Assembly (NCBI RefSeq): GCF_009761675.1
Contig: NZ_QUZH01000022.1
Coordinates: 1-64,000, forward strand
Source of the DNA: Bhargavaea sp. CC-171006
Lineage (GTDB): Bacteria; Bacillota; Bacilli; Bacillales_A; Planococcaceae
DNA length: 64,000 nt
Direction of reading: 5' to 3'
The notes beneath the pieces were generated by a model. The model saw only the letters and a program-made list of their open reading frames with translations. It was not told the origin of the DNA and made no database searches. This document shows positions 11,998 through 47,726 of this stretch, one piece after another. The position numbers were made by a program, and so were the translations under genes. How positions within the stretch are numbered: position 1 is the first letter of the stretch; each line of letters opens with the position of its first letter.

Positions 11998-12140
11998 TCA
12001 GACGCGGCTCCTTCTCCCATCCAGACTTTCACTGTCGGTCCCGGAGTTGCACCGGGTCCACCGTACGAATACGGGTCACGGACTGAGGGCATGCGCCCAT
12101 CACCGCCGGCCGGGAATTTCACCCTGCCCCGAAGGATTGC
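11998..12140 (-). ncRNA. FMN riboswitch (RFN element)
   Basis: The minus strand carries the hallmark RFN segments in order: GGGGCAGGGTGAAATTCCC, GGCCGGCGGTGATGGGC, a variable stem, the AACTCCGGGACCGACAGT segment and AGTCTGGATGGGAGAAGGAG. All conserved junction pieces appear intact. It binds FMN and should turn the rib operon off when flavin is plentiful, here by the terminator at 11934-11960. It is notable that the switch persists although the first gene behind it is decayed. Confidence 0.93.
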
Positions 12141-28099: not shown

Positions 28100-28500
28100 A
28101 CCGTCGCCATTCGATAAGCCATGTTTTGTTCCATCGTACTCAGACGGCTTACGCCTCGTACTCCGGCGGTAATCATCTATCTACAGGCTTCTGCCTGTCC
28201 CTTCCTCCGTTCGTTTCCTTCGGAAGGACGCCCCTACCAAAATTTGGGTTTCTCGCTCGAGGGGTTTACCCGTTCCACCCGCACCGTTTCCGATGCGACT
28301 ACGTCACTGTGGCACTTTTCAGGGGATCTCTGCCATATCCCAAAGGACTTAGGCATTATCCCCGCCGTCAGACCCGGAAGGATCTGCCCCGGCTTATGAC
28401 TTTGCCGGGCACGAACACTACGGTCATCTCAGAACCGTGCGAGCATGGACTTTCCTCTACAACCCGAAGTTGCAGCGATTACCTGAATGGCGACTTTGGC
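28100..28500 (-). ncRNA. rnpB: RNase P RNA, Bacillus (class B) type
   Basis: About 400 nt, the catalytic RNA that trims tRNA 5' ends. Conserved stretches are visible in order: GTAATCGCTGC, GAGGAAAGTCCATGCTCGC, GAAGTCATAAGC-like and AAGTGCCACAGTGACG segments, AAACCCCTCGAGCGAGAAAC with CCAAATTTTGGTAGGGG (a class B signature), GTAGATAGATGATTACCGCC, and the 3' piece ACAAAACATGGCTTATC. The ends GTCGCCATTC and GAATGGCGAC pair as helix P1, which fixes the boundaries to within a few bases. Position between ypsC and gpsB matches B. subtilis. Confidence 0.96.
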
Positions 28501-45651: not shown

Positions 45652-46486
45652 CCGGGTCGCCTCCATACAGTTTGCCTGCTTCTTCCTCTTTCATCGTGAA
45701 GCGGTGGGCATCCGCCGGGAAGGAGCCGTCCCTTACCGCTGTCGCATAGGCGGTGATGCCATCTCGGATCGGTGTGCCGGCGTCGGCAAACCGGCGGACA
45801 AACTTCGGTACATGATGACTTCCGTAGCCGATCAGATCATGGAATACAAGCACTTGTCCGTCCGTTTCCGCACCGGCTCCGATTCCGATCACAGGGATGG
45901 AAAGCTCTTCGGTAATCCGGCCGGCAAGCTGATGGGGAATGCATTCAAGGACGAGCATGCAGGCGCCTGCTTCCTCCACTTCCTTCGCTTCCCGGATCAG
46001 CCGGAGCGCATCTTGCGCCGTCTTTCCCTGAACCTTGTAGCCGCCCGTAACGCCTGCCGACTGCGGCAGGAGCCCGAGATGCGCAACCACGGGAATCCCC
46101 GTCGACACGAGTCTCCCGATTGCTTTCGCCACAATGCCCGCACCCTCAAGCTTTAGGGCGTCCGCACCGGTTTCCCGGAACAAGCGGACAGCTGCTTCAA
46201 GTGTACGGTCGATGCTCCCGTGGTAAGTGCCGAACGGCATGTCCACAACTGTGAATGCATCTCCAGCCCCCCGTTGCACCGCCTTGCCATGGTGAATCAT
46301 ATCCTCGAGGGTCACCGGCACGGTTGAATCATAACCGAGCACGACCATTCCGAGTGAATCTCCGACAAGCAGTACATCCATTCCGCTATCGGCAGCCATC
46401 TTTGCCGTCGGATAATCGTACGCCGTCATCATCACAATCTTTTCGCCGTTCTGTTTTTTCTTCATCAGGTCTGCAGTGGTTGTCAT
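45638..46486 (-). CDS. panB: 3-methyl-2-oxobutanoate hydroxymethyltransferase
   Basis: 282 residues from the ATG at 46486 with AAAGGAG upstream. Motifs [29 protein letters not shown] and [11 protein letters not shown] are typical. It makes ketopantoate from ketoisovalerate and methylene-THF. It heads panBCD and is preceded by an unusually long leader (46487-46702) ending in a terminator hairpin. Confidence 0.95.
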
Positions 46487-46512
46487 TATTCTTCTCCTTT
46501 CCTGGAGAAAAC

Positions 46513-46547
46513 CAAAAGCCCTTCCGCCAAAAATGGCAGAAGGGCTG
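46513..46547 (-). terminator. Terminator or attenuator hairpin just before panB
   Basis: Minus-strand AGCCCTTCTGCC pairs with GGCGGAAGGGCT around ATTTTT, followed by TTTGGTTTTC. It ends only 10 bases before the panB ribosome binding site, leaving no room for a promoter, so it probably controls read-through into panB. Confidence 0.8.
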
Positions 46548-46702
46548 AATATGCATTCCGGTCTTCTCCGTCCCTGTCTTTTCGGATCAAGGCGGACCAA
46601 GTCTATTGGCGATCCTTCCCGTCTTGGGAATGGCTTCGCTTTTCCGGCCGTTCAGCTTGTTTCAGGTGCAGTTCAGTTACGATACCGCCCTTCTCCGCCT
46701 CC
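46548..46702 (-). promoter_or_regulatory. panB leader, possible pan-motif or attenuator
   Basis: About 150 bp of untranslated leader between a promoter at 46703-46732 and the terminator at 46513-46547. It can fold into hairpins (for example GGATC..CCAA..TTGG..GATCC). A conserved RNA called the pan motif is known upstream of pantothenate genes in Firmicutes, but I cannot confirm its consensus here. Confidence 0.35.
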
Positions 46703-46732
46703 AATATAGCAGAAAGCGGTTTCCCTGCGCAA
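46703..46732 (-). promoter_or_regulatory. Candidate panBCD promoter
   Basis: Minus-strand TTGCGC (46732-46727), 18 bases, TATATT (46708-46703), directly after the birA stop. Confidence 0.5.
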
Positions 46733-46736
46733 GCGG

Positions 46737-47726
46737 TTATTCTGCGGGCTCGATGTCCGCGGAATAAATGCCGCGGATGCTGCCGTCTTCTGTCCGGATC
46801 TCCAGAACGCCGTCTTCTGTGATGCCGACTGCCGTCCCGGTAACTGTCTCCCGCACCATGACCGCATTCACTCTTCGGCCGATCGTATCAGAGTTTTCCT
46901 CCCATAGGAACTTGATGGGTGCAAACCCCTCTTCAAGATATAACCTTGAGTAATACCCGAGATTTCTCAGTACCGCGGCCGCAAGCGCAGCGCGGTCAAG
47001 CGGCTGGCCGGATTCCATCCGGATAGAAGTCGCGATATCCGCCAGTTCTTCCGGGAAGTCTTCCGGCTCCTGGTTTACATTGATGCCGGTGCCGATGATG
47101 ATTGCCTGGACACGGTCGGGGTCTGCCTGAAGTTCGGTCAGGATGCCCGTCACCTTCCGGCCGCCGATCAGCAGATCATTCGGCCACTTGATGCGTGCTT
47201 CCACATCCGCCAGCTCGCGGATGGCCCGGCAGATGGACACAGCGGCAATCAGCGTAAACTGTGGTGCCCGGTGCGGCGGGATGTCCGGTTTGAGGATGAT
47301 ACTCATCCAGATTCCCTTGCCGGCGGCGGATGTCCAAGGACGCGCCAGCCGGCCGCGTCCTGCCGTCTGTTCCTCAGCGACGATCACTGTCCCGTCGGGT
47401 GCGCCGCTTTGCGCTTCCCTGTGGGCGATTGGCATCGTCGATTCGACTGATTCAAAGTGGATGATCTCACTGACGAATGGGTCATCCTTCAGGTGCTTCC
47501 GGATCAGTGCGGGCGTAAGCCTGTCCGGTGATGCCTCCAGCACATACCCTTTTTTCCGGACGGAGCGGACAGTAAAGCCGTCCTCCTCCAGTTCACGGAC
47601 CCACTTCCAGACGGCCGTACGGGAAACACCGGCTTCATCAGCCAGCATCTGTCCGGAGACCGGCTCTCCGCCGGCCTCCATGAGCCGCCTGAGCAGGCTC
47701 TCTTTATCTTTTACTTTCGATTCCAT
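46737..47726 (-). CDS. birA: Biotin-[acetyl-CoA-carboxylase] ligase and repressor
   Basis: 329 residues. An N-terminal helix-turn-helix (ADEAGVSRTAVWKWV) shows it can act as a biotin-operon repressor. The ligase domain has the biotinyl-AMP motif GRGRLARPW, KWPNDLLIG and a C-terminal SH3-like domain. It overlaps the upstream cca gene by 23 bases, so it is translated from the same message. Biotin genes are not in the window. Confidence 0.94.
   Translation of the reverse strand: MESKVKDKESLLRRLMEAGGEPVSGQMLADEAGVSRTAVWKWVRELEEDGFTVRSVRKKGYVLEASPDRLTPALIRKHLKDDPFVSEIIHFESVESTMPIAHREAQSGAPDGTVIVAEEQTAGRGRLARPWTSAAGKGIWMSIILKPDIPPHRAPQFTLIAAVSICRAIRELADVEARIKWPNDLLIGGRKVTGILTELQADPDRVQAIIIGTGINVNQEPEDFPEELADIATSIRMESGQPLDRAALAAAVLRNLGYYSRLYLEEGFAPIKFLWEENSDTIGRRVNAVMVRETVTGTAVGITEDGVLEIRTEDGSIRGIYSADIEPAE

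Follow-up and report, generated by a model that had tools for sequence, protein, structure and literature searches.

The window analyzed here is a 64,000-nucleotide stretch of Bhargavaea sp. CC-171006 DNA, in which birA ends at 46737 and panB starts with the ATG at 46486. The locus is read from the minus strand throughout, and the following features were assigned between the two genes, given in the order of transcription:

46703-46732, minus strand: promoter candidate, read by eye, with −35 TTGCGC (46732-46727) and extended −10 TGC-TATATT (46711-46703)
46687-46696, minus strand: inferred transcript 5' end, GGAGAAGGGC, which overlaps P1 and is the candidate antiterminator strand of Bhargavaea
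46564-46691, minus strand: pan motif RF01749, two tandem bulged-A hairpins, from the covariance model match
46664-46691, minus strand: pan hairpin 1 (P1), 46691-46681 paired with 46674-46664, each strand with one bulged A (46683, 46667), from the Rfam alignment
46568-46595, minus strand: pan hairpin 2 (P2), 46595-46585 paired with 46578-46568, each strand with one bulged A (46587, 46571), from the Rfam alignment
46560-46569, minus strand: P2 tail GGAGAAGACC, candidate antiterminator strand of most relatives; in the window its best partner is the strand behind the U-run
46517-46546, minus strand: terminator hairpin, 13-bp stem and 4-nt loop, 5' arm 46546-46534 = AGCCCTTCTGCCA
46507-46516, minus strand: terminator U-rich tail TTTGGTTTTC, from terminator prediction
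46504-46513, minus strand: GGTTTTCTCC, pairing with the P2 tail (outer stem) or partly with the ribosome site, from pairing calculation
46491-46499, minus strand: panB ribosome binding site AAGGAGAAG, with AAGGAG at 46499-46494

An earlier note on this DNA had suggested that the leader could be the pan RNA motif. A scan with the Rfam pan model (RF01749) bears this out: positions 46691-46564 (minus strand) match over the full model length with 37.4 bits, 1.2 bits above the gathering score of 36.2, and this is the single pan match found in the genome. The model alignment places two tandem stems in the window, each with two bulged A, and the motif precedes panB, then panC and panD, as pan motifs do. 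Other Rfam models near the leader all scored far below their cut-offs. Elsewhere in the window, an FMN riboswitch (12005-12140, minus strand, 104 bits) and a bacterial RNase P class B RNA (28110-28490, minus strand, 329 bits) were found.

The other seven Bhargavaea genomes score 37.7-57.1 bits against RF01749 (cut-off 36.2). In six of the eight Bhargavaea leaders P1 and P2 are 68-70 nt apart and the scores are 37.4-43.9 bits; in the remaining two the gap is 38 and 41 nt, with scores of 57.1 and 49.2 bits. The marginal score in the window is thus attributed to the ~30 nt more between the hairpins in these six leaders. The extra stretch (46663-46596, minus strand, in the window) folds into a hairpin in all six of them, with energies of -10.0 to -16.0 kcal/mol. 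At one position of this linker hairpin, two species have U-A and two others C-G, but the window has a mismatch, as does L037 in the register used. A third pan hairpin is not claimed here, since by the alignment count no pair changed on both sides. PanB of the genus is 80-91% identical to six named Bhargavaea records, and one genus member (L033) carries the same leader as Edaphobacillus lindanitolerans.

The pan motif was found in 141/151 genomes of the window's family, in 172/299 Bacilli genomes and in 127/299 genomes of a phylum sample (the samples overlap); the B. subtilis genome, used as a control, carries it as well. Ten family genomes are without it, and five of these also lack panB (Pfam PF02548). 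The other five, all of genus g9 (L311-L314 and L316), have panB and give no pan match even at E 10; in L314, panB lies close behind birA. Within the family, double copies are confined to genus g7, where sixteen genomes have them. In 10/10 g7 genomes examined, the pan operon is split and its panB and panC parts each have their own pan leader, the second copy sitting between birA and panC (L120-L139). From the 157 family matches (141 genomes, 16 of them double), 139 leaders were used, including 20 of the 32 from g7; together with 79 leaders of other families they make up the 218 Bacilli leaders analyzed below.

At L317, L253 and other loci, the gene directly behind pan often encodes a Rossmann/DUF2520 protein, with panB next (PF10728 in L317 and L253), and this protein may be a ketopantoate reductase. 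Outside Bacilli, some pan motifs precede uptake genes: BioY is encoded behind pan in L345 and L359, an ECF S-component (Pfam) is the second gene in L345 and in L323, where the first gene is BirA-like, and an OPT-family transporter (Pfam) follows in L353. L349 and L357 show a similar uptake-gene context, by eye only. In the 2010 description, the passage on pan lists no operons other than those of panB, panC and aspartate decarboxylase (PMC2864571).

The earlier note had proposed comparing panB leaders for covariation. Within Bhargavaea the pan stems hardly vary, so that covariation is uninformative there. Across Bacilli (214/218 leaders parsed for each hairpin), both stems do covary. For P1, canonical pairing is 89.7% over 103 distinct strand pairs, compared with a mean of 77.5% and a maximum of 79.7% when the 3' strands were re-dealt 500 times; for P2, 91.7% canonical pairs were counted in 24 distinct pairs (re-dealt mean 87.4%, maximum 90.8%). 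In every feature examined, the birA-panB stretch is a genuine member of the known orphan RNA family pan.

A promoter candidate just past birA and a leader of about 200 nt had also been noted before, and both hold up. The candidate has a poor −35 and an 18-nt spacer, and the consensus promoter scan did not list the TGC-TATATT promoter upstream of pan. An extended −10 of the form TGnTAnnnT occurs in the 45 nt upstream of pan in 177/218 Bacilli leaders, compared with 21.5 expected after shuffling. We infer a transcript start near 46696, and therefore a leader of ~210 nt. Because the extended −10 ends 11 nt before the motif, P1 would begin ~5 nt or less from the transcript start. The leader folds more stably than 200 dinucleotide shuffles of it (z -4.9), and it contains three copies of GGAGAAG, one each at the 5' end, the P2 tail and the ribosome site.

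The terminator that the earlier note had placed just before the panB ribosome site was likewise recovered. Its energy in the window is -24.9 kcal/mol, and its U-rich tail ends ~8 nt short of AAGGAG. For relatives, a strong terminator was defined as a hairpin with a U-run and an energy of -15 kcal/mol or lower between P2 and the panB start codon, with the search beginning behind P2. Such a terminator is present in 8/8 Bhargavaea leaders versus 5/80 shuffled segments, in 110/139 leaders of the window's family versus 3/417, and in 45/77 leaders of other Bacilli families versus 11/231 (two of the 79 are too short for this count). Even at -6 kcal/mol, a hairpin is absent from 4/218 Bacilli leaders: in L305 and L306 panB lies directly behind pan, with no space for a terminator, and L221 (best -5.4) and L256 show no hairpin at this energy. 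In L130 and L137, a hairpin starting inside P2 was rejected as the terminator. The distance from P2 to the terminator is ~90-100 nt in L007, L142 and similar leaders (genus g13) and up to ~200 nt in L156 and L158, with the terminator arm still conserved in both groups.

In the window's family, the terminator 5' arm is close to CCCUUCUGUCC (135/139 leaders match at least 8 of 11 positions), and it is more constant than the 3' arm, with 98 versus 187 departures in 1370 paired cells when the 5' arm is counted from the consensus and the 3' arm from the complement. The complement of this arm is the P2 3' strand plus tail, typically GGGACGGARG. When this pairing was compared with that of shuffled arms, the mean z was -1.79 in 105 distinct family leaders outside Bhargavaea, -1.03 in 72 leaders of other Bacilli families and -1.27 in 41 leaders outside Bacilli. 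The other pan strands gave z near zero in these sets, with one exception: in the family, the P1 5' strand reached -1.08. With only -0.13 in other Bacilli families and no own-partner fit, this strand was rejected as a general antiterminator. For these pairing tests, the four hairpin-less leaders were dropped from the 218 and the remaining 214 reduced to 179 distinct ones. Outside Bacilli, 41 of 45 loci were used; L330 (hairpin too short for the filter), L332 and L346 (P2 of both missed by the pattern) and L342 (taken from the wrong strand) were dropped. L327 was dropped as a repeat of L256.

The fit of each arm to its own partner was then assessed by comparing its pairing with its own tail to that with the tails of other leaders. 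In this permutation, which ignores the tree, arms fit their own tails in 27 other Bacilli families (z -2.99, p 0.003; controls -0.44, -0.77, -0.60 and +0.02). Loci outside Bacilli were fetched after this result as a further test, and their 22 families gave z -2.15 and p 0.011 (controls -1.32, -0.70 and +1.20). Over the 49 families excluding the window's, z is -4.74 (ten draws, -5.48 to -3.76; controls -0.51, -1.12 and +0.72), with a median of 0.0000 for the share of 3000 permutations that did as well. No such fit is seen inside the window's family (z -0.26, p 0.41 over 18 genera). With all 45 groups pooled, z is -1.15 and p 0.12, which is weak and not better than three of the four controls (-1.13, -0.96, -0.84 and -0.43). 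Our reading is that the family's missing signal reflects its near-constant arm and tail. The search for an antiterminator among relatives, which the earlier note had called for, yielded a candidate pairing. This pairing of arm and P2 tail would also explain the conserved unpaired AaGG that ends the Rfam consensus.

The genus of the window departs from this pattern. The arm is CUUCUGCC in all eight Bhargavaea leaders, and most of the family has CUUCUGUCC. Pairing of the Bhargavaea arm with the P2 tail, at ~-8 kcal/mol, is no better than in shuffles (z +0.57, from only two distinct arm/tail combinations), and the partner in this genus is therefore assigned from energies alone. The arm pairs better, at -18 to -20 kcal/mol, with GGAGAAGGGC plus the three nt before the inferred start. 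Growing transcripts of the window were folded from 46696 as equilibrium calculations. With only the arm and loop emerged, the mean probability of pairing between arm and 5' end is 0.63-0.68; it is 0.47 with half of the 3' arm out and 0.00 with the complete 3' arm, when the terminator arm pairs with its 3' arm at 0.97 and P1 rises from 0.59 to 0.98. At no stage does the arm pair with the P2 tail (0.00). From these folds and the closely related leaders compared, we propose that in Bhargavaea the antiterminator partner may have moved to the transcript 5' end.

Judged from complementarity, the layout looks like that of a terminator/antiterminator switch. The terminator 5' arm would pair either with an upstream pan strand, allowing read-through, or with its own 3' arm, causing a stop. 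Something that binds the tandem bulged-A hairpins would lock them and hold back the upstream strand, so that the terminator forms and panBCD is switched off. For most relatives, the strand held back would be the P2 3' strand plus tail; in Bhargavaea, it would more likely be the transcript 5' end, which overlaps the P1 5' strand. That binding is the OFF signal, and what the signal is, are guesses from pathway logic. The leader probably controls panBCD by transcription attenuation. The earlier note had suggested as much, and of its reading the pan identity and the terminator stand, now joined by a candidate antiterminator; attenuation itself we infer. Counting against it are the missing own-partner fit in the window's family and its weakness over all groups pooled, the poor tail pairing of Bhargavaea and the four Bacilli leaders with no hairpin at -6 kcal/mol. 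The wider proposal strikes us as an even bet: pan in Bacillota would be a general attenuation switch, with the P2 3' strand plus tail as antiterminator against a dedicated arm, governing vitamin B5 synthesis and, in some non-Bacilli, uptake, and with the antiterminator moved to the 5' end in Bhargavaea.

The hairpin before panB could instead be nothing other than the end of the birA transcript, with the pan motif not acting on it. Indeed, birA lies directly upstream on the same strand, no terminator is visible from its stop codon to the pan promoter, and in L316, which has no pan motif, a short hairpin with a U-run is still seen by eye between birA and panB. The terminator arm, however, is complementary to pan strands beyond shuffles, and the panB leaders of the two-copy genus g7 offer a separation of the two genes. 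In 10/10 of those examined there is a pan motif and a hairpin with a U-run, and no BirA match in the 300 nt upstream. Judging by these leaders, the motif and a terminator hairpin track the pan genes rather than birA. The birA-end explanation, which the earlier note had named as the alternative that would refute it, therefore fits badly, and we consider it very unlikely. A different question is what the attenuator would sense. A protein binding both hairpins, rather than a metabolite, is compatible with attenuation and nearly as credible as not: the two short stems are similar, each with two bulged A, and a dimeric protein-binding motif was suggested in the pan passage of Weinberg et al. 2010 (PMC2864571). 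Against this, no candidate protein was found, with no systematic search behind that result.

Control might also act mainly on translation, with GGUUUUCUCC (46513-46504) covering the ribosome site and the P2 tail releasing it. The post-terminator stretch folds over the ribosome site in 8/8 Bhargavaea leaders, and the P2 tail pairs with this strand beyond shuffles, with a z of -3.3 for 104 family leaders and of -5.8 for the eight of Bhargavaea. It also fits its own partner, at z -3.8 across 18 genera of the family and z -2.9 across 27 other families of Bacilli. Against shuffles, however, this outer stem is weak outside the family (z -0.53 in 71 leaders of other Bacilli families). Covering of the ribosome site is weak within the family (z -1.05), where 21/104 leaders fall in the best 5%, and still weaker in other families (z -0.42). 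As a general feature, such covering was rejected, having given near nothing in the first version of the test and a weak result in the second. A mainly translational leader would moreover leave the terminator unexplained, and we regard it as improbable. The stem of P2 tail and post-terminator strand can form only in transcripts that have passed the terminator. A second, translational layer of control is possible.

The pan motif was described in 2010 by Weinberg et al., whose pan passage mentions neither terminator nor antiterminator (PMC2864571). In a 2017 Paenibacillus riograndensis transcriptome, a pan leader of panB-panC is listed among the expressed leaders (PMC5670726). The terms 'riboswitch', 'leader' and 'attenuat' do not occur in the main text of a study on B. 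subtilis coenzyme A synthesis from 2024 (PMC11487621). No later study of the pan mechanism or its signal was found in the open-access literature searched. The element is thus a known one; what is new is a testable mechanistic reading, for which sequence comparison gives the best support outside the window's family. Because it names a specific antiterminator pairing, this reading can be tested by a few point changes in Bacillus subtilis. The question concerns the way in which many Gram-positive bacteria adjust their vitamin B5 and coenzyme A supply.

Compared with RF01749, the window is alike in its tandem bulged-A hairpins upstream of panB, panC and panD genes, and differs by the longer inter-hairpin spacer of six of the eight Bhargavaea leaders. 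In trp/TRAP and pyr/PyrR leaders, binding to the nascent leader chooses between terminator and antiterminator. The pan leader would share this choice, although it has hairpins where those attenuators use repeats or a single binding loop, and to our knowledge, unlike for trp and pyr, no protein is known for pan. FMN and SAM leaders place an upstream sensor before mutually exclusive antiterminator and terminator pairings and then a biosynthetic operon. Unlike for these riboswitches, we know of no ligand for pan, and its sensor would consist of two small hairpins instead of a multi-branched fold; the order of sensor, antiterminator, terminator and operon, however, is one that the pan leader would share with them.
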